A DNA stretch of 35,384 nt from Saccoglossus kowalevskii (Eukaryota > Hemichordata > Enteropneusta > Harrimaniidae), in NCBI RefSeq assembly GCF_000003605.2, contig NW_003145787.1, positions 353,681 through 389,064 of the forward strand. Reading direction: 5' to 3'. The notes under the pieces are model-generated. The model did no database searches. It had not been told where the DNA came from and was given only the letters and a program-made list of their open reading frames with translations. Below, piece by piece: positions 1-35,384 of the stretch. Both the position numbers and the translations under genes were made by a program. Numbering within the stretch: the stretch's first letter is position 1; each line of letters begins with the position of its first letter.

Positions 1-252
1 AACTGAATGTCCTGTTTGGTACATATGTGCTAAAAACCAAACGTCGAGCCACTGAATCCACTGTTTGATTCATATTTGCTACAAACCAAACTTTGAGCCA
101 CTGAATGTACTGTTTGGGCCATGTGCACTACAAATCAAACTTTGAGCCACTGAATGTACTCTTTCGTACATATGCGTTACAAACCAAACATTTAGCCACT
201 GAATGTACTGGTTAGTACCTATTTACTACAAACCAAACTTTGAGCCACTGAA
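1..252 (+). repeat. Tail of a C-plus cassette, cut by the window edge
   Basis: This stretch equals the last 252 bases of the 494-bp C-plus cassette (compare 2124-2375). The order is tgtcctg with cgtcgag, gattcatatttgc, gggccatgtgcac, ctctttcg with acatttagcc, then ggttagtaccta. It differs from the other copies by tttactac instead of tttgctac near 230. Confidence 0.85.
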
Positions 253-595
253 TGTACTGTTTGGTACATGTGTGTTACAAACCAAACTTTGAGCCACTGA
301 ATGTACCGTTTTGGTCATGTGCACTAAAAACCAAACTTTGAGCCACTGAATGTACTGTTTGATTCATATTTGTTACAAACCAAACTTTGAGCCACTGAAT
401 GTACTGTTTGGTACATATGTGTTACAAACAAAACTTTGAGCTACCGAATGCACTGGTTGGCACATATGTGGTACAATCCAAACTTTGAGCCACTTAATGT
501 ACTGTTTGGTACATGTGTGTTACAAACAAAATTTTGAGCCACTGAATGTACTGTTTGGTACATATGCGTTATAAACCAAACTTTGAGCCACTGAA
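253..595 (+). repeat. Seven mixed monomers leading into the first C cassette
   Basis: The block is exactly seven 49-bp units: canonical, ccgttttggtcatg, gattcatatttgtt, an aaacaaaac/gagctaccgaa unit, ggcacatatgtggtacaatcc, aaacaaaattttgag, and catatgcgttata. The same series recurs at 10668-11010, so this is the left arm of a long duplicated segment. Confidence 0.8.
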
Positions 596-795
596 TGTAC
601 CGGTTGGTACATATGTGCTGTAAACTAAACCAAACATTGAGACACTAAACCTACTGATTGGTACATATGTGCTAAAAACCAAACGTCGAGCCACTGAATC
701 CACTGTTTGGCCCATGTGCACTACATACCAACTTTGAGCCACTGAATGCACCGTTTGGGCCATGTGCACTACAAACCAAACTTTGAGCCACTGAA
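596..795 (+). repeat. C cassette, 200 bp (copy 1)
   Basis: Four marker monomers in fixed order: a 54-bp unit with gctgtaaactaaaccaaac and gagacactaaa, a 49-bp unit with gctaaaaacc and cgtcgag, a 48-bp unit starting tccactg with ggcccatg, and a 49-bp unit starting tgcaccg with gggccatg. The sum is 200 bp. This copy has ccggttgg at its start and a private aacctactg. It is followed by gggcc rather than by the ggttag unit that follows a full C-plus cassette. Confidence 0.9.
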
Positions 796-1236
796 TGTAC
801 TGTTTGGGCCATGTGCACTACAAATCAAACTTTGAGCCACTGAATGTACTGTTTGGTACATATGTGTTACAAACAAAACTCTGAGCTACCGAATGCACTG
901 GTTGGCACATGTGTGGTACAATCCAAACTTTGAGCCACTGAATATACTGTTTGGTACATGTTACAAACCAAACTTTGAGCCACTTAATGTACTGTTTGGT
1001 ACATATGTGTTATAAACCAAACTTTAAGCCACTGAATGTACTGTTTGGTACATATGCGGTACAAACCAAACTTTGAGCCACTTAATGTACTGTTTGGTAC
1101 ATATTTGTTACAAACCAAACTTTGAGCGACTGAATGTACTGTTTGGGCCATGTGTACGTGTTACAAACCAAACTTTGAGCCACTGAATGCACTGTTTGGT
1201 ACATGTGTGTTACAAACCAAACTTTGAGCCACTGAA
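796..1236 (+). repeat. Monomers between C copies 1 and 2
   Basis: The block contains gggcc, a gagctaccg unit, ggcacatgtgtgg, a 45-bp unit shortened to gtacatgttac after tatactg, catatgcggtac, catatttgtt with gagcgac, and a 53-bp unit with gtgtacgtgtt. This is the order found in the tail of the D block, so the 641-bp repeat looks like C joined to a D tail. Confidence 0.75.
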
Positions 1237-1436
1237 TGTACCGGTTGGTACATATGTGCTGTAAACTAAACCAAACATTGAGACACTAAATGTACTGATT
1301 GGTATATATGTGCTAAAAACCAAACGTCGAGCCACTGAATCCACTGTTTGGCCCATGTGCACTACACACCAACTTTGAGCCACTGAATGCACCATTTGGG
1401 CCATGTGCACTACAAACCAAACTTTGAGCCACTGAA
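1237..1436 (+). repeat. C cassette, 200 bp (copy 2)
   Basis: Begins 641 bp after copy 1. It carries the private variants ggtatatatg and actacacacc, which are shared only with the segment near 9.59-9.67 kb. Together with the intervening monomers it forms the second unit of a local 641-645 bp higher-order repeat. Confidence 0.9.
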
Positions 1437-1881
1437 TGTACTGTTTGGGCCATGTGCACTACAAATCAAACTTTGAGCCACTGAATGTACTGTTTGGTAC
1501 ATATGTGTTACAAACAAAACTTTGAGCTACCGAATGCACTGGTTGGCACATGTGTGGTACAATCCAAACTTTGAGCCACTGAATATACTGTTTGGTACAT
1601 ATGTGTTATAAACCAAACTTTAAGCCACTGAATGTACTGTTTGGTACATATGCGGTACAAACCAAACTTTGAGCCACTTAATGCACTGTTTGGTACATAT
1701 TTGTTACAAACCAAACTTTGAGCCACTGAATGTACTGTTTGGGCCATGTGTACGTGTTACAAACCAAACTTTGAGCGACTGAATGTACTGTTTGGTACAT
1801 ATGTGTTATAAACCAAACTTTGAGCGACTGAATGTACTGTTTGGTACATATGTGTTATAAACCAAACTTTAAGCCACTGGA
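1437..1881 (+). repeat. Monomers between C copy 2 and the first C-plus
   Basis: A second version of the D-like tail, here with tatactg followed by the full gtacatatgtgttata unit instead of the 45-bp unit, and ending in two gagcgac/gttataaacc units and a ttaagccactgga unit. It is repeated at 9729-10173 with the same private bases. Confidence 0.75.
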
Positions 1882-2375
1882 TGTACTGGTTGGTACATAT
1901 GTGCTGTAAACTAAACCAAACATTGAGACACTAAATGTACTGATTGGTACATATGTGCTAAAAACCAAACGTCGAGCCACTGAATCCACTGTTTGGCCCA
2001 TGTGCACTACAAACCAACTTTGAGCCACTGAATGCACCGTTTGGGCCATGTGCACTACAAACCAAACTATGAGACACTGAATGTACTGGTTAGTACATAT
2101 GTGTTACAAACAAAACCTTGAGACACTGAATGTCCTGTTTGGTACATATGTGCTAAAAACCAAACGTCGAGCCACTGAATCCACTGTTTGATTCATATTT
2201 GCTACAAACCAAACTTTGAGCCACTGAATGTACTGTTTGGGCCATGTGCACTACAAATCAAACTTTGAGCCACTGAATGTACTCTTTCGTACATATGCGT
2301 TACAAACCAAACATTTAGCCACTGAATGTACTGGTTAGTACCTATTTGCTACAAACCAAACTTTGAGCCACTGAA
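1882..2375 (+). repeat. C-plus cassette, 494 bp (copy 1)
   Basis: The 200-bp C cassette continues into six more marker monomers: ggttagtacatatg with caaaacc, tgtcctg with gctaaaaacc/cgtcgag, gattcatatttgc, gggcc with aaatcaaac, ctctttcg with catttagcc, and ggttagtaccta. Eight full copies in the window are 494 or 495 bp long, so the order and length are fixed. In this copy the tgtcctg unit is preceded by gagacactg and the fifth unit has catatgcg. Confidence 0.9.
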
Positions 2376-2424
2376 TGTACTGTTTGGTACATGTGTGTTA
2401 CAAACCAAACTTTGAGCCACTGAA

Positions 2425-2719
2425 TGTACCGTTTTGGTCATGTGCACTACAAACCAAACTTTGAGCCACTGAATGTACTGTTTCATACATATGTGTTACA
2501 AAACAAACTTTGAGCCACTGAATGTACTGTTTGGGCCATGTGCACTACAAATCAAACTTTGAGCCACTGAATGTACTCTTTCGTACATATGTGTTACAAA
2601 CCAAACATTTAGCCACTGAATGTACTGGTTAGTACATATGTGCTACAAACCAAACTTTGATGTCACTGAATGTACTGGTTAGTACATGTGTGTTACAAAC
2701 CAAACTTTGAGCCACTGAA
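2425..2719 (+). repeat. E block, 295 bp (copy 1)
   Basis: Six monomers in fixed order: ccgttttggtcatgtgcac, tttcatacat with acaaaacaaac, gggcc, ctctttcg, ggttagtacatatgtgctac ending in gatgtcactgaa (50 bp, one extra base), and ggttagtacatgtg. The sum of 5 x 49 + 50 fits exactly. Confidence 0.85.
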
Positions 2720-2768
2720 TGTACTGTTTGGTACATGTGTGTTACAAACCAAACTTTGAGCCACTGAA
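2720..2768 (+). repeat. Reference canonical 49-bp monomer
   Basis: This copy matches the majority unit at all positions I can judge. It has 10 G and 9 C (39% GC) and no CpG. It contains GTAC twice, eleven bases apart, and the palindrome ACATGT. Two inverted repeats overlap in it: ATGTAC/GTACAT with a 6-nt loop (its first base being the last a of the preceding unit) and GTTTGGT/ACCAAAC with a 15-nt loop. Common substitutions elsewhere change catgtg to catatg, tgtact to tgcact, aaactt to aagctt, and gagccactg to gagacactg. Confidence 0.95.
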
Positions 2769-3160
2769 TGCACTGTTTGGTACATGTGTGTTACAAACCA
2801 AACTTTGAGCCACTGAATGTACTGTCTGGTACATGTGTGTTACAAACCAAACTTTGAGCCACTGAATGCACTGTTTGGTACATGTGTGTTACAAACCAAA
2901 CTTTGAGCCACTGAATGTACTGTTTGGTACATGTGTGTTACAAACCAAGCTTTGAGCCACTGAATGTACTGTTTGGTACATGTGTGTTACAAACCAAACT
3001 TTGAGCCACTGAATGTACTGTTTGGTACATGTGTGTTACAAACCAAACTTTGAGACACTGAATGTACTGTTTGGTACATGTGTGTTACAAACCAAACTTT
3101 GAGCCACTGAATGTACTGTTTGTTACATGTGTGTTACAAACCAAACTTTGAGCCACTGAA
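2720..3160 (+). repeat. Canonical run of 9 monomers
   Basis: Exactly 441 bp of near-identical units. Point markers come in the order tgcact, tgtctgg, tgcact, aagctttgag (HindIII site at 2947), then gagacactg. The same nine-unit series with the same order of markers recurs at 24646-25086 and 26912-27352. Confidence 0.85.
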
Positions 3161-3455
3161 TGTACCGTTTTGGTCATGTGCACTACAAACCAAACTTTGA
3201 GCCACTGAATGTACTGTTTCATACATATGTGTTACAAAACAAACTTTGAGCCACTGAATGTACTGTTTGGGCCATGTGCACTACAAATCAAACTTTGAGC
3301 CACTGAATGTACTCTTTCGTACATATGTGTTACAAACCAAACATTTAGCCACTGAATGTACTGGTTAGTACATATGTGCTACAAACCAAACTTTGATGTC
3401 ACTGAATGTACTGGTTAGTACATGTGTGTTACAAACCAAACTTTGAGCCACTGAA
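3161..3455 (+). repeat. E block, 295 bp (copy 2)
   Basis: Lies 736 bp (15 monomers plus one base) downstream of copy 1 and appears identical to it. The two E blocks with the nine-unit run between them make a local tandem duplication. Confidence 0.85.
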
Positions 3456-4932
3456 TGTACTGTTTGGTACATGTGTGTTACAAACCAAACTTTGAGCCAC
3501 TGAATGCACTGTTTGGTACATGTGTGTTACAAACCAAACTTTGAGCCACTGAATGTACTGTTTGGTACATGTGTGTTACAAACCAAGCTTTGAGCCACTG
3601 AATGTACTGTTTGGTACATGTGTGTTACAAACCAAACTTTGAGCCACTGAATGTACTGTTTGGTACATGTGTGTTACAAACCAAACTTTGAGACACTGAA
3701 TGTACTGTTTGGTACATGTGTGTTACAAACCAAACTTTGAGCCACTGAATGTACTGTTTGGTACATGTGTGTTACAAACCAAACTTTGAGCCACTGAATG
3801 TACTGTTTGGTACATGTGTGTTACAAACCAAACTTTGAGCCACTGAATGTACTGTTTGGTACATGTGTGTTACAAACCAAACTTTGAGCCACTGAATGTA
3901 CTGTTTGGTACATGTGTGTTACAAACCAAACTTTGAGCCACTGAATGTACTGTTTGGTACATGTGTGTTACAAACCAAACTTTGAGCCACTGAATGCACT
4001 GTTTGGTACATGTGTGTTACAAACCAAACTTTGAGCCACTGAATGTACTGTTTTGGTACATGTGTGTTACAAACCAAGCTTTGAGCCACTGAATGTACTG
4101 TTTGGTACATGTGTGTTACAAACCAAACTTTGAGCCACTGAATGTACTGTTTTGGTACATGTGTGTTACAAACCAAACTTTGAGACACTGAATGTACTGT
4201 TTGGTACATGTGTGTTACAAACCAAACTTTGAGCCACTGAATGTACTGTTTGGTACATGTGTGTTACAAACCAAACTTTGAGCCACTGAATGCACTGTTT
4301 GGTACATGTGTGTTACAAACCAAACTTTGAGCCACTGAATGTACTGTTTGGTACATGTGTGTTACAAACCAAACTTTGAGCCACTGAATGCACTGTTTTG
4401 GTACATGTGTGTTACAAACCAAACTTTGAGCCACTGAATGTACTGTTTGGTACATGTGTGTTACAAACCAAGCTTTGAGCCACTGAATGTACTGTTTGGT
4501 ACATGTGTGTTACAAACCAAACTTTGAGCCACTGAATGTACTGTTTGGTACATGTGTGTTACAAACCAAACTTTGAGACACTGAATGTACTGTTTGGTAC
4601 ATGTGTGTTACAAACCAAACTTTGAGCCACTGAATGTACTGTTTGGTACATGTGTATTACAAATCAAACTTTGAGCCACTGAATGTACTGTTTGGTAAAT
4701 GTGTGTTACAAACCAAACTTTGAGCCACTGAATGTACTGTTTGGTACATGTGTGTTACAAACCAAACTTTGAGCCACTGAATGTACTGTTTGGTACATGT
4801 GTGTTACAAACCAAACTTTGAGCCACTGAATGTACTGTTTGGTACATGTGTACGTGTTACAAACCAAACTTTGAGCCACTGAATGTACTGTTTGGTACAT
4901 GTGTGTTACAAGCCAAACTTTGAGCCACTGAA
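3456..4932 (+). repeat. Longest canonical run, 30 monomers
   Basis: The 1477 bp equal 30 x 49 plus 7; the seven extra bases are accounted for by one four-base gtgtacgtgtt unit near 4850 and three single T insertions (gttttgg near 4051, 4149 and 4394). HindIII-type aagctt markers at 3585, 4076 and 4470 are 491 and 394 bp apart (10 units plus one T, 8 units plus two T), and each is preceded by a tgcact unit and followed by a gagacactg unit, which shows a sub-repeat of 8 to 10 monomers. Near 4651-4700 gtgtattacaaatc and ggtaaatg units are shared with 21.4 kb. Confidence 0.85.
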
Positions 4933-5672
4933 TGTACTGGTTGGTACATATGTTCTGTAAACTAAACCAAACATTGAGACACTAAATGTACTGATTTGTA
5001 CATATGTGCTAAAAACCAAACGTCGAGCCACTGAATGTACTGGTTAGTACATATGTGTTACAAACCAAACTTTGAGCCACTGAATGCACTGTTTCGTACA
5101 TACGTGTTACAAATCAAACTTTGAGCCACTGAATGTACTGTTTGATTCATATTTGTTACAAACCAAACTTTGAGCCACTGAATGTACTGTTTGATTCATA
5201 TTTGTTACAAACCAAACTTTGAGCCACTGAATGTACTGTTTGGTACATATGTGTTACAAACAAAATTTTGAGCTACCGAATGCACTGGTTGGCACATGTG
5301 TGGTACAATCCAAACTTTGAGCCACTGAATATACTGTTTGGTACATGTTACAAACCAAACTTTGAGCCACTTAATGTACTGTTTGGTACATATGTGTTAT
5401 AAACCAAACTTTAAGCCACTGAATGTACTGTTTGGTACATATGCGGTACAAACCAAACTTTGAGCCACTTAATGTACTGTTTGGTACATATTTGTTACAA
5501 ACCAAACTTTGAGCGACTGAATGTACTGTTTGGGCCATGTGTACGTGTTACAAACCAAACTTTGAGCGACTGAATGTACTGTTTGGTACATATGTGTTAT
5601 AAACCAAACTTTGAGCGACTGAATGTACTGTTTGGTACATATGTGTTATAAACCAAACTTTAAGCCACTGCA
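4933..5672 (+). repeat. D block, 740 bp (copy 1)
   Basis: Fifteen marker monomers: a 54-bp unit with catatgttctgtaaac, a gatttgtac/cgtcgag unit, ggttag, tttcgtacatacg, two gattcat units, an aaaattttgagctaccg unit, ggcacatg, a 45-bp gtacatgttac unit, ttataaacc/ttaagcc, catatgcgg, catatttgtt/gagcgac, a 53-bp gggccatgtgtacg unit, and two ttataaacc units ending in actgca. The unit lengths sum to 740, exactly the observed size. Confidence 0.88.
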
Positions 5673-6166
5673 TGTACTGCTTGGTACATATGTGCTGTAA
5701 ACTAAACCAAACATTGAGACACTAAATGTACTGATTGGTACATATGTGCTAAAAACCAAACGTCGAGCCACTGAATCCACTGTTTGGCCCATTTGCACTA
5801 CAAACCAACTTTGAGCCACTGAATGCACCGTTTGGGCCATGTGCACTACAAACCAAACTATGAGACACTGAATGTACTGGTTAGTACATATGTGTTACAA
5901 ACAAAACCTTGAGCCACTGAATGTCCTGTTTGGTACATATGTGCTAAAAACCAAACGTCGAGCCACTGAATCCACTGTTTGATTCATATTTGCTACAAAC
6001 CAAACTTTGAGCCACTGAATGTACTGTTTGGGCCATGTTCACTACAAATCAAACATTGAGCCACTGAATGTACTCTTTCGTACATATGTGTTACAAACCA
6101 AACATTTAGCCACTGAATGTACTGGTTAGTACCTATTTGCTACAAACCAAACTTTGAGCCACTGAA
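5673..6166 (+). repeat. C-plus cassette, 494 bp (copy 2)
   Basis: Starts tgtactgcttgg directly after the actgca end of the D block. Relative to copy 1 it has ggcccatttgc, gggccatgttc with aaatcaaacattg, and ccttgagcc before tgtcctg. These same variants are shared with the four copies of the 22-29 kb tandem. Confidence 0.9.
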
Positions 6167-6805
6167 TGTACTGTTTGGTACATGTGTGTTACAAATCAAA
6201 CTTTGAGCCACTGAATGCACTGTTTGGTACATGTGTGTTACAAACCAAACTTTGAGCCACTGAATGCACTGTTTGGTACATGTGTGTTACAAACCAAACT
6301 TTGAGCCACTGAATGTACTGTTTGGTACATGTGTGTTACAAACCAAGCTTTGAGCCACTGAATGTACTGTTTGGTACATGTGTGTTACAAACCAAACTTT
6401 GAGCCACTGAATGTACTGTTTGGTACATGTGTGTTACAAACCAAACTTTGAGACACTGAATGTACTGTTTGGTACATGTGTGTTACAAACCAAACTTTGA
6501 GCCACTGAATGTACTGTTTGGTACATGTGTGTTACAAACTAAATCTTTGAGCCACTGAATGCACTGTTTGGTACATGTGTGTTACAAACCCAAACATTGA
6601 GCCACTGAATGTACTGTTTGGTACATGTGTGTTACAAACCAAACTTTGAGCCACTGAATGTACTGTTTGGTACATGTGTGTTACAAACCAAACTTTGAGC
6701 CACTGAATGCACTGTTTGGTACATGTGTGTTACAAACCAAACTTTGAGCCACTGAATGTACTGTTTGGTACATGTGTGTTACAAACCAAACTTTGAGACA
6801 CTAAA
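6167..6805 (+). repeat. Canonical run of 13 monomers
   Basis: The 639 bp are 13 units plus two single-base insertions, in aaactaaatctttg near 6538 and aaacccaaacattg near 6586. The aagctt marker is at 6345. The run closes the first A zone. Confidence 0.8.
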
Positions 6806-7005
6806 TGTACTGTTTGGTACATATGTGTTAGAAACCAAACTTTCAGCCACTGAATGTACTGTTTCGTACATATGTGTTACAAAACAAGCTTTAAGCCACT
6901 GAATGTACAGGTTACTACATATGTGCTACAAACCAAACTTTGAGCCACTGAATGTACTGTTTGGTACATGTGTACGTGTTACAAACCAAACTTTGAGCCA
7001 CTGAA
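6806..7005 (+). repeat. Transition monomers from A zone to B zone
   Basis: Contains gttagaaacc/ttcagcc, tttcgtac with acaaaacaagctttaagcc, acaggttactac, and a 53-bp gtgtacgtgtt unit. The same approach recurs before the B cores at 8715 and 32755. Confidence 0.7.
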
Positions 7006-7722
7006 TGTACTGGTTGGTACATATGTGCTAAAAACCAAACGTCGAGCCACTGAATCCACTGTTTGGCCCATGTGCACTACAAACCAACTTTGAGCCACTG
7101 AATGCACCGTTTGGGCCATGTGCACTACAAACCAAACTTTGAGCCACTTAATGTACTGGTTAGTACATATGTGTTACAAACCAAACTTTGAGCCACGTGC
7201 ACTACAAACCAAACTTTGAGCCACTGAATGTACTGTTTCATACATATGTGTTACAAAACAAAGTTTGAGCCACTGAATGTACTGTTTGGGCCATGTGCAC
7301 TACAAATCAAACTTTGAGCCACTGAATGTACTCTTTCGTACATATGTGTTACAAACCAAACATTTAGCCACTGAATGTACTGGTTAGTACATATGTGCTA
7401 CAAACCAAACTTTGATGTCACTGAATGTACTGGTTAGTACCTATTTGCCAGAAACCAAACTTTGAGCCACTGAATGTACTGTTTGGTACATGTGTGTTAC
7501 ATACCAAACTGAGCTACCGAATGCACTGGTTGGTACATATGTGGTACAATCCAAATTTTGAGCCACTTACTGTACTGTTTGGTACATGTGTACGTGTTAC
7601 AAACCAAGCTTTGAGCCACTTAATGTACTGTTTGGTACATATGCAGTACAAACCAAACTTTGAGCCACTGAATGTACTGGTTTGGTACATGTGTGTTACA
7701 AACCAAACTTTGAGCCACTGAA
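7006..7722 (+). repeat. B core, 717 bp (copy 1)
   Basis: Begins with a shortened C cassette of 146 bp (ggttgg...gctaaaaacc/cgtcgag, tccactg, tgcaccg), then a 77-bp fused double monomer with CACGTG at 7194. It continues with tttcatac/acaaaacaaagtttgag, gggcc, ctctttcg, a gatgtcactg unit, ggttagtaccta, acataccaaactgagctaccg (47 bp), ggttggtacatatgtggtacaatcc ending acttac, a 53-bp tacgtg unit, catatgcagtac, and ggttggtacatgtg. One extra T (ggtttgg) at the end makes it 717. It has the private variant tttgccagaaacc, shared only with the core at 32755. Confidence 0.9.
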
Positions 7723-8714
7723 TGTACTGTTTGGTACATGTGTGTTACAAACCAAACTTTGAGCCACTGAATGTACTGTTTGATTCATATTTGTTACAAA
7801 CCAAACTTTGAGCCACTGAATGTAATGTTTGGGCCATGTGCACTACAAATCAAACTTTGAGCCACTGAATGTACTGTTTGGTACATATGTGTTACAAACA
7901 AAACTTTAAGCTACCGAATGCACTGGTTGGTACATATGTGGTACAATCCAAACTTTGAGCCACTGAATGTACTGTTTGGTACATATGCGGTACAAACCAA
8001 ACTTTGAGCCACTTAATGTACTGTTTGGTACAGGTGTACGTGTTACAAACAAAATTTTGAGCCACTGAATATACTGTTTGGTACATGTGTACGTGTTACA
8101 AACAAAATTTTGAGCCACTGAATGTACTGATTGGTACATGTGTGTTATAAACCAAACTTTGAGCCACTGAATGTACTGTTTGGTACATGTGTGTTACAAA
8201 TTAAACTTTGAGCCACTGAATGCACTGTTTGGTACATGTGTGTTACAAACCAAACTTTGAGCCACTGAATGTACTGTTTGGTACATGTGTGTTACAAACC
8301 AAACTTTGAGCCACTGAATGTACTGTTTGGTACATGTGTGTTACAAACCAAACTTTGAGCCACTGAATGCACTGTTTGGTACATGTGTGTTACAAACCAA
8401 ACTTTGAGCCACTGAATGTACTGTTTGGTACATGTGTGTTACAAACCAAACTTTGAGACACTAAATGTACTGTTTGGTACATATGTGTTACAAACCAAAC
8501 TTTGAGCCACTGAATGTACTGTTTCGTACATATGTGTTACAAAACAAGCTTTAAGCCACTGAATGTACAGGTTACTACATATGTGCTACAAACCAAACTT
8601 TGAGCCACTGAATGTACTGTTTGATTCATATTTGTTACAAACCAAACTTTGAGCCACTGAATGTACTGTTTGGTAAATGTGTACGTGTTACAAACCAAAC
8701 TTTGAGCCACTGAA
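7723..8714 (+). repeat. Filler between B cores 1 and 2, with a 6-unit canonical run
   Basis: Contains a canonical unit, gattcat, tgtaatgtttgggcc, an aaactttaagctaccg unit, catatgcgg, and two 53-bp tacgtg units of which the first reads tacaggtgtacg at 8029. A canonical run of exactly six monomers occupies 8172-8465. Then come gagacactaaa, tttcgtac/aagctttaagcc, acaggttactac, gattcat and a taaatgtgtacg unit. Confidence 0.75.
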
Positions 8715-9430
8715 TGTACTGGTTGGAACATATGTGCTAAAAACCAAACGTCGAGCCACTGAATCCACTGTTTGGCCCATGTGCACTACAAACCAACTTT
8801 GAGCCACTGAATGCACCGTTTGGGCCATGTGCACTACAAACCAAACTTTGAGCCACTGAATGTACTGGTTAGTACATATGTGTTACAAACCAAACTTTGA
8901 GCCACGTGCACTACAAACCAAACTTTGAGCCACTGAATGTACTGTTTCATACATATGTGTTACAAAACAAAGTTTGAGCCACTGAATGTACTGTTTGGGC
9001 CATGTGCACTACAAATCAAACTTTGAGCCACTGAATGTACTCTTTCGTACATATGTGTTACAAACCAAACATTTAGCCACTGAATGTACTGGTTAGTACA
9101 TATGTGCTACAAACCAAACTTTGATGTCACTGAATGTACTGGTTAGTACCTATTTGCTACAAACCAAACTTTGAGCCACTGAATGTACTGTTTGGTACAT
9201 GTGTGTTACATGCCAAACTGAGCTACCGAATGCACTGGTTGGTACATATGTGGTACAATCCAAATTTTGAGCCACTTACTGTACTGTTTGGTACATGTGT
9301 ACGTGTTACAAACCAAGCTTTGAGCCACTTAATGTACTGTTTGGTACATATGCAGTACAAACCAAACTTTGAGCCACTGAATGTACTGGTTGGTACATGT
9401 GTGTTACAAACCAAACTTTGAGCCACTGAA
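8715..9430 (+). repeat. B core, 716 bp (copy 2)
   Basis: CACGTG lies at 8903, 1709 bp after copy 1. Private variants are ggttggaacat at the start and acatgccaaactg near 9209; the latter is shared with the core at 19738. Confidence 0.92.
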
Positions 9431-10173
9431 TGTACTGTTTGGTACATGTGTGTTACAAACCAAACTTTGAGCCACTGAATGTACTGTTTGGTACATGTAT
9501 GTTACAAACCAAACTTTGAGCCACTGAATGCACTGTTTGGTACATATGTGCTGTAAACTAAACCAAACATTTAGCCACTGAATGTACTGATTGGTATATA
9601 TGTGCTAAAAACCAAACGTCGAGCCACTGAATCCACTGTTTGGCCCATGTGCACTACACACCAACTTTGAGCCACTGAATGCACCGTTTGGGCCATGTGC
9701 ACTACAAACCAAACTTTGAGCCACTGAATGTACTGTTTGGGCCATGTGCACTACAAATCAAACTTTGAGCCACTGAATGTACTGTTTGGTACATATGTGT
9801 TACAAACAAAACTTTGAGCTACCGAATGCACTGGTTGGCACATGTGTGGTACAATCCAAACTTTGAGCCACTGAATATACTGTTTGGTACATATGTGTTA
9901 TAAACCAAACTTTAAGCCACTGAATGTACTGTTTGGTACATATGCGGTACAAACCAAACTTTGAGCCACTTAATGCACTGTTTGGTACATATTTGTTACA
10001 AACCAAACTTTGAGCCACTGAATGTACTGTTTGGGCCATGTGTACGTGTTACAAACCAAACTTTGAGCGACTGAATGTACTGTTTGGTACATATGTGTTA
10101 TAAACCAAACTTTGAGCGACTGAATGTACTGTTTAGTACATATGTGTTATAAACCAAACTTTAAGCCACTGGA
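9431..10173 (+). repeat. Junction and copy of the 1.29-1.88 kb segment
   Basis: Two canonical units and a gtatg unit are followed near 9529 by a hybrid: tgcactgtttgg joined to catatgtgctgtaaactaaaccaaac, then catttagcc instead of cattgagac. From about 9590 on the sequence follows 1300-1881 at a constant offset of 8292, including ggtatatatg and actacacacc. It is a recombinant C cassette whose first unit is a chimera. Confidence 0.8.
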
Positions 10174-10667
10174 TGTACTGGTTGGTACATATGTGCTGTA
10201 AACTAAACCAAACATTGAGACACTAAATGTACTGATTGGTACATATGTGCTAAAAACCAAACGTCGAGCCACTGAATCCACTGTTTGGCCCATGTGCACT
10301 ACAAACCAACTTTGAGCCACTGAATGCACCGTTTGGGCCATGTGCACTACAAACCAAACTATGAGACACTGAATGTACTGGTTAGTACATATGTGTTACA
10401 AACAAAACCTTGAGACACTGAATGTCCTGTTTGGTACATATGTGCTAAAAACCAAACGTCGAGCCACTGAATCCACTGTTTGATTCATATTTGCTACAAA
10501 CCAAACTTTGAGCCACTGAATGTACTGTTTGGGCCATGTGCACTACAAATCAAACTTTGAGCCACTGAATGTACTCTTTCGTACATATGCGTTACAAACC
10601 AAACATTTAGCCACTGAATGTACTGGTTAGTACCTATTTGCTACAAACCAAACTTTGAGCCACTGAA
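10174..10667 (+). repeat. C-plus cassette, 494 bp (copy 3)
   Basis: The offset of 8292 from copy 1 continues here, with matching gagacactg before tgtcctg and catatgcg in the ctctttcg unit. Just upstream, near 10134, the two differ by gtttagtac versus gtttggtac. Confidence 0.9.
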
Positions 10668-11010
10668 TGTACTGTTTGGTACATGTGTGTTACAAACCAA
10701 ACTTTGAGCCACTGAATGTACCGTTTTGGTCATGTGCACTAAAAACCAAACTTTGAGCCACTGAATGTACTGTTTGATTCATATTTGTTACAAACCAAAC
10801 TTTGAGCCACTGAATGTACTGTTTGGTACATATGTGTTACAAACAAAACTTTGAGCTACCGAATGCACTGGTTGGCACATATGTGGTACAATCCAAACTT
10901 TGAGCCACTTAATGTACTGTTTGGTACATGTGTGTTACAAACAAAATTTTGAGCCACTGAATGTACTGTTTGGTACATATGCGTTACAAACCAAACTTTG
11001 AGCCACTGAA
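10668..11010 (+). repeat. Seven mixed monomers, copy of 253-595
   Basis: Same order and same length as the seven units at the window start, at an offset of 10415. The ccgttttggtcatg unit has gcactaaaaacc as at the window start, not gcactacaaacc as at 2440, so this is where the template changes between the two overlapping parent segments. Confidence 0.8.
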
Positions 11011-24645: not shown

Positions 24646-25086
24646 TGTACTGTTTGGTACATGTGTGTTACAAATCAAACTTTGAGCCACTGAATGCACT
24701 GTTTGGTACATGTGTGTTACAAACCAAACTTTGAGCCACTGAATGTACTGTTTGGTACATGTGTGTTACAAACCAAACTTTGAGCCACTGAATGCACTGT
24801 TTGGTACATGTGTGTTACAAACCAAACTTTGAGCCACTGAATGTACTGTTTGGTACATGTGTGTTACAAACCAAGCTTTGAGCCACTGAATGTACTGTTT
24901 GGTACATGTGTGTTACAAACCAAACTTTGAGCCACTGAATGTACTGTTTGGTACATGTGTGTTACAAACCAAACTTTGAGACACTGAATGTACTGTTTGG
25001 TACATGTGTGTTACAAACCAAACTTTGAGCCACTGAATGTACTGTTTGGTACATGTGTGTTACAAACCAAACTTTGAGCCACTGAA
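24646..25086 (+). repeat. Canonical run of 9 monomers
   Basis: Exactly 441 bp, aagctt at 24873. An acaaatc change in the first unit is shared with 6167-6215, which hints that the 6.2 kb and 24.7 kb units are close relatives. Confidence 0.85.
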
Positions 25087-25381
25087 TGTACCGTTTTGGT
25101 CATGTGCACTACAAACCAAACTTTGAGCCACTGAATGTACTGTTTCATACATATGTGTTACAAAACAAACTTTGAGCCACTGAATGTACTGTTTGGGCCA
25201 TGTGCACTACAAATCAAACTTTGAGCCACTGAATGTACTCTTTCGTACATATGTGTTACAAACCAAACATTTAGCCACTGAATGTACTGGTTAGTACATA
25301 TGTGCTACAAACCAAACTTTGATGTCACTGAATGTACTGGTTAGTACATGTGTGTTACAAACCAAACTTTGAGCCACTGAA
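25087..25381 (+). repeat. E block, 295 bp (copy 3)
   Basis: Inserted between a nine-unit and a six-unit canonical run. Its presence, plus a different number of canonical units, accounts for the 2264-2266 bp spacing of this unit against 1724-1777 bp for the one before. Confidence 0.87.
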
Positions 25382-25675
25382 TGTACTGTTTGGTACATGT
25401 GTGTTACAAACCAAACTTTGAGCCACTGAATGTACTGTTTGGTACATGTGTGTTACAAACCAAACTTTGAGCCACTGAATGTACTGTTTGGTACATGTGT
25501 ATTACAAACCAAACTTTGAGCCACTGAATGTACTGTTTGGTAAATGTGTGTTACAAACCAAACTTTGAGCCACTGAATGTACTGTTTGGTACATGTGTGT
25601 TACAAACCAAACTTTGAGCCACTGAATGTACTGTTTGGTACATGTGTGTTACAAGCCAAACTTTGAGCCACTGAA
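25382..25675 (+). repeat. Canonical run of 6 monomers
   Basis: Exactly 294 bp. It includes a gtgtattac unit, a ggtaaatg unit and a final acaagcc unit that precedes every D block. Confidence 0.83.
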
Positions 25676-26417
25676 TGTACTGGTTGGTACATATGTTCTG
25701 TAAACTAAACCAAACATTGAGACACTAAATGTACTGATTTGTACATATGTGCTAAAAACCAAACGTCGAGCCACTGAATGTACTGGTTAGTACATATGTG
25801 TTACAAACCAAACTTTGAGCCACTGAATGCACTGTTTCGTACATACGTGTTACAAATCAAACTTTGAGCCACTGAATGTACTGTTTGATTCATATTTGTT
25901 AAAACCAAACTTTGAGCCACTGAATGTACTGTTTGATTCATATTTGTTACAAACCAAACTTTGAGCCACTGAATGTACTGTTTGGTACATATGTGTTACA
26001 AACAAAATTTTGAGCTACCGAATGCACTGGTTGGCACATGTGTGGTACAATCCAAACTTTGAGCCACTGAATATACTGTTTTGGTACATGTTACAAACCA
26101 AACTTTGAGCCACTTTAATGTACTGTTTGGTACATATGTGTTATAAACCAAACTTTTAAGCTACTGAATGTACTGTTTGGTACATATGCGGTACAAACCA
26201 AACTTTGAGCCACTTAATGTACTGTTTGGTACATATTTGTTACAAACCAAACTTTGAGCGACTGAATGTACTGTTTGGGCCATGTGTACGTGTTACAAAC
26301 CAAACTTTGAGCGACTGAATGTACTGTTTGGTACATATGTGTTATAAACCAAACTTTGAGCGACTGAATGTACTGTTTGGTACATATGTGTTATAAACCA
26401 AACTTTAAGCCACTGCA
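25676..26417 (+). repeat. D block, 742 bp (copy 4)
   Basis: Three single-base insertions (tgttttgg near 26080, actttaatg near 26113, aacttttaag near 26152) and one deletion (gttaaaacc near 25900) give the net two extra bases. All are homopolymer changes. Confidence 0.88.
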
Positions 26418-26911
26418 TGTACTGCTTGGTACATATGTGCTGTAAACTAAACCAAACATTGAGACACTAAATGTACTGATTGGTACATATGTGCTAAAAA
26501 CCAAACGTCGAGCCACTGAATCCACTGTTTGGCCCATTTGCACTACAAACCAACTTTGAGCCACTGAATGCACCGTTTGGGCCATGTGCACTACAAACCA
26601 AACTATGAGACACTGAATGTACTGGTTAGTACATATGTGTTACAAACAAAACCTTGAGCCACTGAATGTCCTGTTTGGTACATATGTGCTAAAAACCAAA
26701 CGTAGAGCCACTGAATCCACTGTTTGATTCATATTTGCTACAAACCAAACTTTGAGCCACTGAATGTACTGTTTGGGCCATGTTCACTACAAATCAAACA
26801 TTGAGCCACTGAATGTACTCTTTCGTACATATGTGTTACAAACCAAACATTTAGCCACTGAATGTACTGGTTAGTACCTATTTGCTACAAACCAAACTTT
26901 GAGCCACTGAA
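26418..26911 (+). repeat. C-plus cassette, 494 bp (copy 7)
   Basis: Begins 2266 bp after copy 6. It carries cgtagagcc near 26702, shared only with the copy at 14509. Confidence 0.9.
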
Positions 26912-27352
26912 TGTACTGTTTGGTACATGTGTGTTACAAACCAAACTTTGAGCCACTGAATGCACTGTTTGGTACATGTGTGTTACAAACCAAACTTTGA
27001 GCCACTGAATGTACTGTCTGGTACATGTGTGTTACAAACCAAACTTTGAGCCACTGAATGCACTGTTTGGTACATGTGTGTTACAAACCAAACTTTGAGC
27101 CACTGAATGTACTGTTTGGTACATGTGTGTTACAAACCAAGCTTTGAGCCACTGAATGTACTGTTTGGTACATGTGTGTTACAAACCAAACTTTGAGCCA
27201 CTGAATGTACTGTTTGGTACATGTGTGTTACAAACCAAACTTTGAGACACTGAATGTACTGTTTGGTACATGTGTGTTACAAACCAAACTTTGAGCCACT
27301 GAATGTACTGTTTGTTACATGTGTGTTACAAACCAAACTTTGAGCCACTGAA
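26912..27352 (+). repeat. Canonical run of 9 monomers
   Basis: Exactly 441 bp with the order tgcact, tgtctgg, tgcact, aagctt (27139), gagacactg, gtttgttac. The last marker is also at 3120, so this run and 2720-3160 look like copies of each other. Confidence 0.85.
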
Positions 27353-27647
27353 TGTACCGTTTTGGTCATGTGCACTACAAACCAAACTTTGAGCCACTGA
27401 ATGTACTGTTTCATACATATGTGTTACAAAACAAACTTTGAGCCACTGAATGTACTGTTTGGGCCATGTGCACTACAAATCAAACTTTGAGCCACTGAAT
27501 GTACTCTTTCGTACATATGTGTTACAAACCAAACATTTAGCCACTGAATGTACTGGTTAGTACATATGTGCTACAAACCAAACTTTGATGTCACTGAATG
27601 TACTGGTTAGTACATGTGTGTTACAAACCAAACTTTGAGCCACTGAA
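27353..27647 (+). repeat. E block, 295 bp (copy 4)
   Basis: Starts exactly 2266 bp after the E block at 25087. No private change was noticed. Confidence 0.87.
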
Positions 27648-28043
27648 TGTACTGTTTGGTACATGTGTGTTACAAACCAAACTTTGAGCCACTGACTGTA
27701 CTGTTTGGTACATGTGTGTTACAAACCAAACTTTGAGCCACTGAATGTACTGTTTGGTACATGTGTATTACAAACCAAACTTTGAGCCACTGAATGTACT
27801 GTTTGGTAAATGTGTGTTACAAACCAAACTTTGAGCCACTGAATGTACTGTTTGGTACATGTGTGTTACAAACCAAACTTTGAGCCACTGAATGTACTGT
27901 TTGGTACATGTGTGTTACAAACCAAACTTTGAGCCACTGAATGTACTGTTTGGTACATGTGTACGTGTTACAAACCAAACTTTGAGCCACTGAATGTACT
28001 GTTTGGTACATGTGTGTTACAAGCCAAACTTTGAGCCACTGAA
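27648..28043 (+). repeat. Canonical run of 8 monomers
   Basis: The 396 bp equal 8 units plus the four-base tacgtg insertion near 27962. The two additional monomers (102 bp with the insertion) are the full difference between this higher-order unit (2368 bp) and the preceding one (about 2266 bp). An actgactgtac change is private (near 27692). Confidence 0.85.
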
Positions 28044-28785
28044 TGTACTGGTTGGTACATATGTTCTGTAAACTAAACCAAACATTGAGACACTAAATGT
28101 ACTGATTTGTACATATGTGCTAAAAACCAAACGTCGAGCCACTGAATGTACTGGTTAGTACATATGTGTTACAAACCAAACTTTGAGCCACTGAATGCAC
28201 TGTTTCGTACATACGTGTTACAAATCAAACTTTGAGCCACTGAATGTACTGTTTGATTCATATTTGTTACAAACCAAACTTTGAGCCACTGAATGTACTG
28301 TTTGATTCATATTTGTTACAAACCAAACTTTGAGCCACTGAATGTACTGTTTGGTACATATGTGTTACAAACAAAATTTTGAGCTACCGAATGCACTGGT
28401 TGGCACATGTGTGGTACAATCCAAACTTTGAGCCACTGAATATACTGTTTGGTACATGTTACAAACCAAACTTTGAGCCCACTTAATGTACTGGTTTGGT
28501 ACATATGTGTTATAAACCAAACTTTAAGCCACTGAATGTACTGTTTGGTACATATGCGGTACAAACCAAACTTTGAGCCACTTAATGTACTGTTTGGTAC
28601 ATATTTGTTACAAACCAAACTTTGAGCGACTGAATGTACTGTTTGGGCCATGTGTACGTGTTACAAACCAAACTTTGAGCGACTGAATGTACTGTTTGGT
28701 ACATATGTGTTATAAACCAAACTTTGAGCGACTGAATGTACTGTTTGGTACATATGTGTTATAAACCAAACTTTAAGCCACTGCA
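28044..28785 (+). repeat. D block, 742 bp (copy 5)
   Basis: Two single-base insertions, gagcccactta near 28477 and ctggtttgg near 28491, account for the two extra bases. Confidence 0.88.
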
Positions 28786-29280
28786 TGTACTGCTTGGTAC
28801 ATATGTGCTGTAAACTAATCCAAACATTGAGACACTAAATGTACTGATTGGTACATATGTGCTAAAAACCAAACGTCGAGCCACTGAATCCACTGTTTGG
28901 CCCATTTGCACTACAAACCAACTTTGAGCCACTGAATGCACCGTTTTGGGCCATGTGCACTACAAACCAAACTATGAGACACTGAATGTACTGGTTAGTA
29001 CATATGTGTTACAAACAAAACCTTGAGCCACTGAATGTCCTGTTTGGTACATATGTGCTAAAAACCAAACGTCGAGCCACTGAATCCACTGTTTGATTCA
29101 TATTTGCTACAAACCAAACTTTGAGCCACTGAATGTACTGTTTGGGCCATGTTCACTACAAATCAAACATTGAGCCACTCAATGTACTCTTTCGTACATA
29201 TGTGTTACAAACCAAACATTTAGCCACTGAATGTACTGGTTAGTACCTATTTGCTAAAAACCAAACTTTGAGCCACTGAA
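28786..29280 (+). repeat. C-plus cassette, 495 bp (copy 8)
   Basis: One inserted T (ccgttttggg near 28942) makes it 495. A ctaatccaaac change is in the 54-bp unit. Its last part, with actcaatg (29179) and gctaaaaacc, matches 13694-13822. Confidence 0.9.
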
Positions 29281-29868
29281 TGTACTGTTTGGAACATGTG
29301 TGTTACAAACCAAACTTTGAGCCACTGAATGCACTGTTTGGTACATGTGTGTTACAAACCAAACTTTGAGCCACTGAATGTACTGTTTGGTACATGTGTG
29401 TTACAAACCAAACTTTGAGCCACTGAATGCACTGTTTGGTACATGTGTGTTACAAACCAAACTTTGAGCCACTGAATGTACTGTTTGGTACATGTGTGTT
29501 ACAAACCAAGCTTTGAGCCACTGAATGTACTGTTTGGTACATGTGTGTTACAAACCAAACTTTGAGCCACTGAATGTACTGTTTGGTACATGTGTGTTAC
29601 AAACCAAACTTTGAGACACTGAATGTACTGTTTGGTACATGTGTGTTACAAACCAAACTTTGAGCCACTGAATGTACTGTTTGGTACATGTGTGTTACAA
29701 ACCAAACTTTGAGCCACTGAATGTACTGTTTGGTACATGTGTGTTACAAACCAAACTTTGAGCCACTGAATGTACTGTTTGGTACATGTGTGTTACAAAC
29801 CAAACTTTGAGCCACTGAATGTACTGTTTGGTACATGTGTGTTACAAAACAAACTTTGAGCCACTGAA
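29281..29868 (+). repeat. Canonical run of 12 monomers
   Basis: Exactly 588 bp, starting with ggaacatg, with aagctt at 29508 and an acaaaacaaac unit near 29841. It ends the third A zone; the expected next D block is missing and B-type filler follows. Confidence 0.85.
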
Positions 29869-30214
29869 TGTACTGTTTGGTACATGTATGTTACAAACCA
29901 AACTTTGAGCCACTGAATGTACTGTTTGGTACATGTGTGTAACAAACCAAACTTTAAGCCACTGAATGTACTGATTCATACATGTGAGTTAGAAACCAAA
30001 CTTTGAGCCACTGAATGTACTGATTCATACATATGTGTTACAAGACAAACTTTGAGCCACTGAATGTACTGGTTAGTACATATGTGCTACAAACCAAACT
30101 TTGAGCCACTGAATGGACTGTTGGGCCATATTTGTTACAAACCAAACTTTGAGCCACTGAATGTACTGTTTGGTACATGTGTACGTGTTACAAACCAAAC
30201 TTTGAGCCACTGAA
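29869..30214 (+). repeat. B-zone filler, copy of 16.56-16.95 kb
   Basis: Contains gtatg, gtgtaac, two tgattcatac units (the first with gttagaaacc), ggttag, tggactgttgggcc and a 53-bp tacgtg unit. It matches the earlier segment at offset 13308, becoming 13258 after one 50-bp monomer is absent here. Confidence 0.78.
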
Positions 30215-30930
30215 TGTACTGGTTGGTACATATATGCTAAAAACCAAACGTCGAGCCACTGAATCCACTGTTTGGCCCATGTGCACTACAAACCAACTTT
30301 GAGCCACTGAATGCACCGTTTGGGCCATGTGCACTACAAACCAAACTTTGAGCCACTGAATGAACTGGTTAGTACATATGTGTTACAAACCAAACTTTGA
30401 GCCACGTGCACTACAAACCAAACTTTGAGCCACTGAATGTACTGTTTCATACATATGTGTTACAAAACAAAGTTTGAGCCACTGAATGTACTGTTTGGGC
30501 CATGTGCACTACAAATCAAACTTTGAGCCACTGAATGTACTCTTTCGTACATATGTGTTACAAACCAAACATTTAGCCACTGAATGTACTGGTTAGTACA
30601 TATGTGCTACAAACCAAACTTTGATGTCACTGAATGTACTGGTTAGTACCTATTTGCTACAAACCAAATTTTGAGCCACTGAATGTACTGTTTGGTACAT
30701 GTGTGTTACATACCAAACTGAGCTACCGAATGCACTGGTTGGTACATATGTGGTACAATCCAAATTTTGAGCCACTTACTGTACTGTTTGGTACATGTGT
30801 ACGTGTTACAAACCAAGCTTTGAGCCACTTAATGTACTGTTTGGTACATATGCGGTACAAACCAAACTTTGAGCCACTGAATGTACTGGTTGGTACATGT
30901 GTGTTACAAACCAAACTTTGAGCCACTGAA
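30215..30930 (+). repeat. B core, 716 bp (copy 6)
   Basis: CACGTG at 30403. Private changes are catatatgc near 30232, tgaactgg near 30361 and aaattttgag near 30667. Confidence 0.92.
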
Positions 30931-32754
30931 TGTACTGTTTGGTACATGTGTGTTACAAACAAAACTTTGAGCCACTGAATGTACTGTTTGGTACATGTAT
31001 GTTACAAACCAAACTTTGAGCCACTGAATGTACTGTTTGGTACATATGTGTGACAAACCAAACATTTAGCCACTGAATGTACTGTTTGGTACATGTGTGT
31101 TACAAACCAAACTTTGAGCCACTGAATGTACTGTTTGGTACATGTGTGTTACAAACCAAACTTTGAGCCACTGAATGTACTGTTTGGTACATGTGTGTTA
31201 CAAACCAAACTTTGAGCCACTGAATGCACTGTTGGGCCATGTGCATTACAAACCAAACTTTGAGACACTAAATGTATTGTTTGGTACATATGTGTTACAA
31301 ACCAAACTTTGAGCCACTGAATGTACTGGTTAGTACATATGTGTTACAAACCAAACTTTGAGCCACTGAATGTACTCTTTCGTACATATGTGATACAAAA
31401 CAAACTTTAAGCCACTGAATGTACAGGTTACTACATATGTGCTACAAACCAAACTTTGAGCCACTGAATGTACTGTTTGATTCATATTTGTTACAAACCA
31501 AACTTTGAGCCACTGAATGTAATGTTTGGGCCATGTGCACTACAAATCAATCTTTGAGCCACTGAATGTACTGTTTGGTACATATGTGTTACAAACAAAA
31601 CTTTGAGCTACCGAATGCACTGGTTGGTACATATGTGGTACAATTCAAACTTTGAGCCACTTAATGTACTGTTTGGTACAAGTGTACGTGTTACAAACAA
31701 AGTTTTGAGCCACTGAATGTACTGTTTCATACATATGTGTTACAAAACAAACTTTGAGCCACTGAATGTACTGTTTGGTACATATGTGTTACAAACAAAA
31801 CTTTGAGCTACCGAATGCACTGGTTGGTACATATGTGGTACAATCCAAATTTTGAGCCACTTACTGTACTGTTTGGTACATGTGTACGTGTTACAAACCA
31901 AGCTTTGAGCCACTTAATGTACTGTTTGGTACATATGTGGTACAAACCAAACTTTGAGCCACTGAATGTACTGGTTGGTACATGTGTGTTACAAACCAAA
32001 CATTGAGCCACTGAATGTACTGTTTGGTACATGTGTGTTACAAACAAAACTTTGAGCCACTGAATGTACTGTTTGGTACATGTATGTTACAAACCAAACT
32101 TTGAGCCACTGAATGTACTGTTTGGTACATATGTGTTACAAACCAAACATTTAGCCACTGAATGTACTGTTTGGTACATGTGTGTTACAAACCAAACTTT
32201 GAGCCACTGAATGTACTGTTTGGTACATGTGTGTTACAAACCAAACTTTGAGCCACTGAATGTACTGTTTGGTACATGTGTGTTACAAAACAAACTTTGA
32301 GCCATTGAATGTACTGTTTGGTACATATGTGTTACAAACCAAACTTTGAGCCACTGAATGTACTGTTTGGGCCATGTGCATTACAAACCAAACTTTGAGC
32401 CACTGAATGTACTGTTTGGTACATGTGTGTTACAAACCAAACTTTGAGCCACTGAATGCACTGTTTGGTACATGTGTGTTACAAACCAAACTTTGAGCCA
32501 CTGAATGTACTGTTTGGTACATGTGTGTTACAAACCAAACTTTGAGACACTAAATGTACTGTTTGGTACATATGTGTTACAAACCAAACTTTGAGCCACT
32601 GAATGTACTGTTTCGTACATATGTGTTACAAAACAAGCTTTAAGCCACTGAATGTACAGGTTACTACATATGTGCTACAAACCAAACTTTGAGCCACTGA
32701 ATGTACTGTTTGGTACATGTGTACGTGTTACAAACCAAACTTTGAGCCACTGAA
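30931..32754 (+). repeat. Long B-zone filler with a partial B core at 31767-32015
   Basis: Opens with canonical, acaaacaaaac and gtatg units and a gtgtgacaaacc change near 31050, then three canonical units (31078-31224) and tgcactgttgggccatgtgcattac. A tttcgtac to caattcaaac series (31.37-31.74 kb) copies 19.3-19.56 kb. The 249-bp partial core at 31767-32015 matches 18846-19094. The last part, from about 32540, matches 6.79-7.0 kb (offset 25749). Confidence 0.7.
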
Positions 32755-33470
32755 TGTACTGGTTGGTACATATGTGCTAAAAACCAAACGTCGAGCCACT
32801 GAATCCACTGTTTGGCCCATGTGCACTACAAACCAACTTTGAGCCACGGAATGCACCGTTTGGGCCATGTGCACTACAAACCAAACTTTGAGCCACTGAA
32901 TGTACTGGTTAGTACATATGTGTTACAAACCAAACTTTGAGCCACGTGCACTACAAACCAAACTTTGAGCCACTGAATGTACTGTTTCATACATATGTGT
33001 TACAAAACAAAGTTTGAGCCACTGAATGTACTGTTTGGGCCATGTGCACTACAAATCAAACTTTGAGCCACTGAATGTACTCTTTCGTACATATGTGTTA
33101 CAAACCAAACATTTAGCCACTGAATGTACTGGTTAGTACATATGTGCTACAAACCAAACTTTGATGTCACTGAATGTACTGGTTAGTACCTATTTGCCAG
33201 AAACCAAACTTTGAGCCACTGAATGTACTGTTTGGTACATGTGTGTTACATACCAAACTGAGCTACCGAATGCACTGGTTGGTACATATGTGGTACAATC
33301 CAAATTTTGAGCCACTTACTGTACTGTTTGGTACATGTGTACGTGTTACAAACCAAGCTTTGAGCCACTTAATGTACTGTTTGGTACATATGCAGTACAA
33401 ACCAAACTTTGAGCCACTGAATGTACTGGTTGGTACATGTGTGTTACAAACCAAACTTTGAGCCACTGAA
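32755..33470 (+). repeat. B core, 716 bp (copy 7)
   Basis: CACGTG at 32943. It shares the rare tttgccagaaacc with copy 1 at the same internal position (offset 25749), and has a private gccacggaatg near 32846. Confidence 0.92.
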
Positions 33471-34161
33471 TGTACTGTTTGGTACATGTGTGTTACAATC
33501 CAAACTTTGAGCCACTGAATGTACTGTTTGGTACATGTATGTTACAAACCAAACTTTGAGCCACTGAATGTACTGTTTGGTACATGTGTGTTACAAACCA
33601 AACTTTGAGCCACTGAATGCACTGTTTGGTACATATGTGTTACAAACCAAACATTTAGCCACTGAATGTACTGGTTAGTACATATGTGCCACAAACCAAA
33701 CTTTGAGCCACTGAATGTACTGTTTGGTACATGTGTGTTACATACCAACCTGAGCTACCGAATGCACTGGTTGGTACATATGTGGTACAATCCAAATTTT
33801 GAGCCACTTACTGTACTGTTTGGTACATGTGTACGTGTTACAAACCAAACTTTGAGCCACTGAATGTACTGTTTGGTACATGTGTGTTACAAACCAAACT
33901 TTGAGCCACTGAATGTACTGTTTGGATCATGTGTGTTACAAACCAAACTTTGAGCCACTGAATGTACTGTTTGGTACATGTGTGTTACAAACCAAACTTT
34001 GAGCCACTGAATGCACTGTTTGGTACATGTGTGTTACAAACCGAACTTTGAGCCACTGAATGCACTGTTGGACCATATTTGTTACAAACCAAACTTTGAG
34101 CCACTGAATGTACTGTTTCGTACATGTGTACGTGTTACAAACCAAACTTTGAGCCACTGAA
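33471..34161 (+). repeat. B-zone filler with partial B core at 33667-33864
   Basis: Includes acaatcc and gtatg units, a canonical pair, catttagcc, then a hybrid ggttagtacatatgtgccac unit that starts a 198-bp partial core. Private changes are accaacctgag near 33746, ttggatcatg near 33924 and accgaac near 34041. Confidence 0.72.
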
Positions 34162-34779
34162 TGTACTGGTTGGTACATATGTGCTAAAAACCAAACGTTG
34201 AGCCACTGAATCCACTGTTTGGCCCATGTGCACTACAAACCAACTTTGAGCCACTGAATGCACCGTTTGGGCCATGTGCACTACAAACCAAACTTTGAGC
34301 CACTGAATGTACTGGTTAGTACATATGTGTTACAAACCAAACTTTGAGCCACGTGCACTACAAACCAAACTGTGAGCCACTGAATGTACTGTTTCATACA
34401 TATGTGTTACAAAACAAAGTTTGAGCCACTGAATGTACTGTTTGGGCCATGTGCACTACAAATCAAACTTTGAGCCACTGAATGTACTCTTTCGTACATA
34501 TGTGTTACAAACCAAACATTTAGCCACTGAATGTACTGGTTAGTACATATGTGCTACAAACCAAACTTTGATGTCACTGAGTGTACTGGTTAGTACCTAT
34601 TTGCTACAAACCAAACTTTGAGCCACTGAATGTACTGTTTGGTACATGTGTGTTACATCCCAAACTGAGCTACCGAATGCACTGGTTGGTACATATGTGG
34701 TACAATCCAAATTTTGAGCCACTTACTGTACTGTTTGGTACATGTGTACGTGTTACAAACCAAACTTTGAGCCACTGAA
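34162..34779 (+). repeat. Shortened B core, 618 bp (copy 8)
   Basis: CACGTG at 34350. It is exactly 98 bp (two monomers) shorter than the others because the tacgtg unit is joined directly to a canonical end, losing the catatgcagtac and ggttggtacatgtg units. It has cgttgag in place of cgtcgag near 34197 and shares actgagtgtac and acatcccaaactg with copy 3. Confidence 0.88.
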
Positions 34780-35384
34780 TGTACTGTTTGGTACATGTGT
34801 GTTACAAACCAAACTTTGAGCCACTGAATGTACTGTTTGTTACATGTGTGTTACAAACCAAACTTTGAGCCACTGAATGTACTGTTTGGTACATGTGTGT
34901 TACAAACCAAACTTTGAGCCACTGAATGCACTGTTTGGTACATGTGTGTTACAAACCAAACTTTGAGCCACTGAATGCACTGTTGGGCCATGTGCATTAC
35001 AAACCAAACTTTGAGCCACTGAATGTACTGTTTGATTCATATTTGTTACAAACCAAACTTTGAGCCACTGAATGTAATGTTTGGGCCATGTGCACTACAA
35101 ATCAAACTTTGAGCCACTGAATGTACTGTTTGGTACATATGTGTTACAAACAAAACTTTAAGCTACCGAATGCACTGGTTGGTACATATGTGGTACAATC
35201 CAAACTTTGAGCCACTTAATGTACTGTTTGGTACATGTGTGTTATAAACCAAACTTTAAGCCACTGAATGTACTGTTTGGGTACATATGCGGTACAAACC
35301 AAACTTTGAGCCACTTAATGTACTGTTTGGTACAGGTGTACGTGTTACAAACAAATTTTGAGCCACTGAATATACTGTTTGGTA
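34780..35384 (+). repeat. B-zone filler running off the window end
   Basis: Canonical units, gtttgttac, tgcact, tgcactgttgggccatgtgcattac, gattcat, tgtaatgtttgggcc, an aaactttaagctaccg unit and a 53-bp tacaggtgtacg unit. It follows 7770-8070 at offset 27252, shifting to 27302 after one extra monomer and one G (tttgggtac). The array continues past the window. Confidence 0.75.

Follow-up and report, generated by a model that had tools for sequence, protein, structure and literature searches.

A stretch of 35.4 kb from Saccoglossus kowalevskii (the window; C3651:353681-389064) consists of tandem repeats and raises the question of whether a satellite array carries order above its higher-order repeats and, if so, how that order arose. 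In the assembly searched here (572 Mb, 4830 contigs), the window is bounded exactly by N runs, one of 15266 and the other of 38419 bases. The host is an animal by its 30 matches to wnt, an animal gene family that had no match in 14 control genomes. A period-49 tandem repeat spans positions 2 to 35384 in 713 copies, with 83% matches between adjacent monomers. Cutting the window into monomers gave 720 complete ones, of which 206 are distinct and which fall into 88 clusters; by length, 571 are of 49 bp, 38 of 53 bp, 18 of 54 bp, and eight of 28 bp, with 85 of other lengths. Strict self-BLAST retrieved higher-order repeat (HOR) units of 1.7–2.4 kb at 98.6–99.7% identity among the matches listed. 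The locus is a HOR satellite array, composed of head-to-tail monomers of one family and of multi-monomer units far more alike than the monomers themselves. Two test words were absent from the opposite strand in a scan of the window.

Within the readable assembly, the family is confined to this one locus, and gaps may hide more of it. A 22-base monomer word allowing up to two mismatches has 584 matches in the genome and a 23-base word allowing up to three has 609 forward matches, every one of them inside the window. The lone reverse match to the 23-base word (C2480:14731-14753, three mismatches) is probably due to chance, since control patterns for that search matched 2 and 3 times. Of the properties expected of a centromeric satellite, these searches covered occurrence elsewhere in the genome, and both words were otherwise limited to the one contig. 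A literature search with three monomer stretches returned no match. A coding reading of the array was dropped, given that no long frame runs across the repeats and the longest of 52 frames of at least 60 aa reaches 111 aa. Hairpin folding of five monomer types was no better than that of most shuffles (z −1.65 to 1.22), and a function other than repeat turnover is not supported.

Markers and monomer repertoires alternate along the window in the order A-B-A-B-A-B that an earlier note on this DNA had proposed, whereas its count of four cassettes (C) in every A zone, its clean separation of the two zone types, and its copied blocks of 8–15 kb were not borne out. The eight CACGTG sites are all where that note had placed them, with no others in the window, and each of its 12 cassette positions leads into the GCTGTAAAC unit. 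The exact CTGTAAACTAAACC and CACGTG markers follow the order C5 B2 C6 B3 C6 B3, which makes 6 runs where shuffling gives 11.9 on average (sd 2.1, P 0.006), the shuffle assuming independent markers, which copied repeats are not. The actual cassette numbers are 5, 6, and 8 in A1, A2, and A3: the window holds 18 units of 54 bp plus one 52-bp form at 12425, and the word GCTGTAAAC occurs 14 times, with the occurrences at 9550 and 13345 missing from the earlier list. A fair map of the array is A1-B1-A2 with an unmarked B-like insert-B2-A3-B3 (Table 1), in which we set the zone limits after viewing the sequence, between the two markers.

Table 1. Zones of the satellite array and selected features within them (window coordinates)
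Feature	Position	Strand	Description
Zone A1	1..6544	+	Five units of 54 bp; B-marker types in 0/132 monomers
Zone B1	6545..9500	+	CACGTG cores (28-bp monomers) at 7187, 8896
Example 28-bp monomer	8896..8923	+	One of eight identical; CACGTG at the joint of the 70-bp gap
Zone A2	9501..15401	+	Five 54-bp units plus a 52-bp one; B-type monomers mixed in
Unmarked B module within A2	11100..11539	+	Has 70 bp absent from all eight B modules
B-like tract within A2	11528..12419	+	Partner 30807-31698 in B3, 96.9% over 892 bp, among the matches listed
Zone B2	15402..20510	+	CACGTG cores at 15973, 17138, 19919
Zone A3	20511..29973	+	Eight units of 54 bp, tandem HORs; 23333-25692 vs 25597-27958 at 99.5%
Example 54-bp monomer (CTGTAAACTAAACC)	23398..23451	+	Variant with TTCTGTAAAC; absent from the list in the earlier note
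Zone B3	29974..35384	+	CACGTG cores at 30396, 32936, 34343; cut where the ungapped sequence ends

The alternation was also recovered at the level of monomers. For runs of eight monomers, the nearest homologue was of the same zone type in a fraction of 0.929, whereas 680 label rotations averaged 0.546 and never exceeded 0.719; when restricted to another zone, this fraction was 0.916, and 56 rotations averaged 0.475 and stayed at or below 0.663, such rotations controlling for zone lengths and not for the choice of zone limits. Copies of at least 10 monomers, after generic ones were dropped, joined the same zone type in 76 of 76 cases, 52 of them between zones. This filter removed copies with at least 70% generic monomer types. 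At 10 monomers it took out 172 of 248 copies, and the same-type count covers the 76 that were kept; at 14 monomers it would leave 45 of 89, but here zone type was checked before filtering (89/89 same type, 0 cross-type). At a length of 8 monomers, 7 of the 92 copies kept were cross-type, all located at 6349-6791 on the A1-B1 limit. Order above the 1.7–2.4 kb HOR is thus real, in the form of two monomer repertoires in alternating zones. Two HOR forms alternate in the array as interleaved lineages, in an order that depends on the assembly.

That the zone types barely mix is true of the markers, with CACGTG absent from the A zones and 54-mers from the B zones (within limits that we drew), but not of the monomers. 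Twenty-eight of the 88 clusters are found in zones of both types, and shared generic monomers form the majority: of the 443 A-zone monomers, 258 belong to shared clusters and 185 to zone-exclusive ones, and of the 277 B-zone monomers, 185 and 92, respectively. The difference between the zone types lies in the non-shared monomers plus monomer order. Near-identical runs of generic monomers with inner patterns like AAAANAAM (2902-4851, 13800-14525, and 20564-21606) recur in all A zones.

Zone A2 is mixed. With A- and B-marker monomer types of our own selection, B-marker types account for 10 of 119 monomers in A2 (at 11197-13609), for 1 of 192 in A3 (at the zone edge), and for none in A1, and A-marker types occur once in B1, never in B2, and twice in B3. 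Beyond the unmarked B module, the B-marker monomers of A2 lie at 11932-13609, and the nearest homologues of A2 segments from 11638 to 12029 fall in B3. A hybrid-looking monomer is identical at 12623 (A2) and 18586 (B2), and its ending is unique to these two in the window.

The unmarked B module, which stands beside a 54-bp unit at 10997, bears on the origin of the CACGTG marker. It aligns to the eight B modules at 98.6–99.5% over 370 bp, interrupted by one 70-bp gap, and to eight A modules at 93.6–94.4% with a 49-bp gap (free-ends alignment). In the B modules, CACGTG is formed at the 70-bp gap by the ...CCAC of one monomer joined to the GTGCAC... of the next, and the 28-bp monomers carrying it are all identical. 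Since the unmarked module matches the B modules except for that one gap, CACGTG is best read as the scar of a deletion that probably had a single origin, and we infer that the module keeping the 70 bp represents the older state. The existence of two lineages and of an unmarked B module is independent of zone order.

To the explanation that we prefer for the alternation we give an even chance: a patchwork of short tracts, in which two sister HOR lineages at one locus exchanged sequence mostly like with like. The A lineage would be the one marked by the 54-bp monomer and the B lineage the one marked by the 70-bp deletion that yielded the 28-bp CACGTG monomer. Older out-of-register exchanges would have brought the zones side by side, and later homologous recombination, whether as gene conversion or as short unequal exchange, would have acted mostly between like sequences, laying tracts no longer than about 2.4 kb over the older mosaic and blurring any older block structure. 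Like-with-like exchange is suggested because, in the module compared, A-A and B-B pairs are about 98–100% identical and A-B pairs only about 94% (A-A 98.2–100%, B-B 99.2–99.7%, A-B 93.5–94.8%). Like-type zones that lie about 7–27 kb apart share near-identical copies with lengths reaching about 2.4 kb. It is possible, and we put it tentatively, that exchange selective for likeness is what keeps the lineages apart while reaching across an unlike zone, from A to A and from B to B over those distances, with the intervening zone remaining different.

Simulations point in the same direction, although toy models of this kind are weak evidence and the seed of the second set is not exactly repeatable. 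Of all 8-monomer segments, 58% were informative, and for 67% of these the nearest best copy lies beyond 160 monomers; simulations with short tandem events only placed at most 0.04 of informative segments past that distance. In the second set, which required four statistics to be matched, short tandem events succeeded in 0 of 330 runs and three models of distant short-tract copying, each run 330 times, in 21, 17, and 11 cases. Only 3 of these 49 matching runs kept 4–8 zones, so that the models do not explain how many zones there are. One assembled haplotype cannot separate conversion, unequal exchange or crossing-over, and break-induced replication.

A rather unlikely alternative, in line with the copying of 8–15 kb blocks suggested by the earlier note, is that whole A+B blocks of this size were copied by unequal crossing-over and that later small events blurred the pattern. 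No copying on this scale was found by self-BLAST. Loose scoring did yield alignments of 8–15 kb, which were rejected as block copies and attributed to monomer background, given their identity of about 85–88% at very many offsets. Colinear composite copies were likewise missing: in two sets of alignments at ≥95% identity (6286 and 459), none held both markers. Among the matches listed, the longest strict copies measure 2363 bp (99.5%, neighboring A3 units), 2143 bp (A1-A3, 99.2%), and 1729 bp (A1-A3, 99.5%). A middle penalty gave three pairs above 2.4 kb, of 3525 bp (96.0%), 2855 bp (98.4%), and 2507 bp (95.1%). The first of these (3439-6959 / 26552-30071) crosses the A1-B1 and A3-B3 limits, in favor of block copying, and ends before the cores. 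Among the matches listed, partner order between A1 and A2 is reversed (1158-2534 with 9450-10826, 2-802 with 10417-11217), and A1 segments 2664-3770, 3806-5533, and 4397-6539 pair with A3 at 26856, 20564, and 22876, a scrambled order. Of 90 ends of copied segments, 56% fall on a generic monomer or next to one, where the background is 38%; that copies end in generic monomers is only suggestive, as the segments overlap.

The zone junctions bear on block copying in both directions. At all three A-to-B junctions the A unit is left in the same phase, just past the string N-A-A-M, and the distances from the last 54-mer start to the first 28-bp core start are 1528, 1478, and 1624 bp; phase and spacing leave room for an old block copy. 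The B sides of these junctions show three different contexts, which speaks against recent block copies, and the two B-to-A distances differ (619 and 1755 bp). Moreover, the A1-A3 copies at 99.2 and 99.5% are no older than the tandem pair in A3 at 99.5%, and had whole blocks been copied recently, colinearity should have survived. In the simulations, none of 329 runs with large events alone matched the four statistics, and a mixture of sizes did so once in 330 runs.

A module tree, from which 1 of 29 anchored modules (too close to the window start) and the module at 11100 (whose anchor word differs) were excluded, placed the eight B modules in one clade (100/99) without resolving them by zone. 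The A rows are intermixed, with A1, A2, and A3 requiring 6, 7, and 6 changes for 6, 7, and 7 rows, respectively. With all six labels, some zone clustering is present (14 changes, where shuffles averaged 17.5 and 2 of 200 gave a count that low). This clustering counts against the exchange of short tracts that we prefer, as do the seven cross-type copies at 8 monomers and two features that suit an older block copy, namely the shared junction phase and the 3.5-kb pair at 96%.

The zone order may instead be partly an artifact of assembly, with near-identical units of 1–2.4 kb misjoined or two haplotypes merged, which we consider unlikely. The array is bounded by the two N runs, and copies of 1–2.4 kb at 99–99.7% identity, among the matches listed, are hard for assemblers; against this, the monomer phase is kept across the junctions, and many copies differ at several sites, which aids correct assembly. 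CACGTG is the core of E-box sites, and it is highly improbable that the zones are functional domains around a putative protein-binding site under selection, a function set aside here because the motif sits exactly at the joint of the 70-bp gap and because the identity of all eight 28-bp monomers, which might seem to favor it, is explained by copying, whole B modules being 99.2–99.7% alike.

Well-studied HOR mosaics are mostly those of primate or plant centromeres, often megabases long. The α-satellite of orangutan chromosome 13 is described as carrying interspersed and cascading HORs, with an array of 18mers, 27mers, and 45mers (PMC11276891). The array described here resembles that system in having one monomer family, monomer types repeated within the unit, and related HOR forms interleaved (PMC11276891). 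The orangutan array is built from 171-bp primate centromeric monomers and is far longer, whereas the present one has 49-bp monomers and spans 35 kb at one locus in a non-primate. Orangutan centromeres more generally are described as patchworks of HOR blocks that share 80–90% identity and represent independent expansions (PMC12428378). Distinct HOR blocks adjoin in one array in both cases (PMC12428378), but in the present array each of the two lineages returns in three zones and is nearly identical from zone to zone. Concerted evolution of satellites is attributed to unequal crossing-over, gene conversion, or break-induced replication, processes that would give copying and homogenization as in the present array (PMC8122249; PMC11034957); here the pattern is read from one assembled sequence.

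The array can accordingly be regarded as a small representative, in another animal, of the interleaved or patchwork HOR arrays described in primate centromeres. With two lineages, eight identical scars, and one undeleted module at a single locus of 35 kb, it is small enough for stepwise reconstruction and could serve to test whether satellites are homogenized by large unequal crossovers or by short tracts. If exchange is indeed selective, the scar and the surviving predeletion form would record how a divergence of about 6% limits satellite recombination.

The sequence outside the window contains other features. Minisatellites with periods of 35, 38, and about 45 lie at C3651:431576-432099, C3651:438397-438718, and C3651:333353-333607, respectively, with consensus sequences that are unrelated by eye. 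In the left flank, an N run separates a pair of open frames that are closely alike and each some 370 aa long (C3651:308669-309775 and C3651:329498-330607), and a Pfam scan of one of them returned no family. The same flank holds a reverse-transcriptase-like frame with a match to DUF6451 (C3651:315942-316784) and a frame with a match to Gly_transf_sug (C3651:256935-257696).
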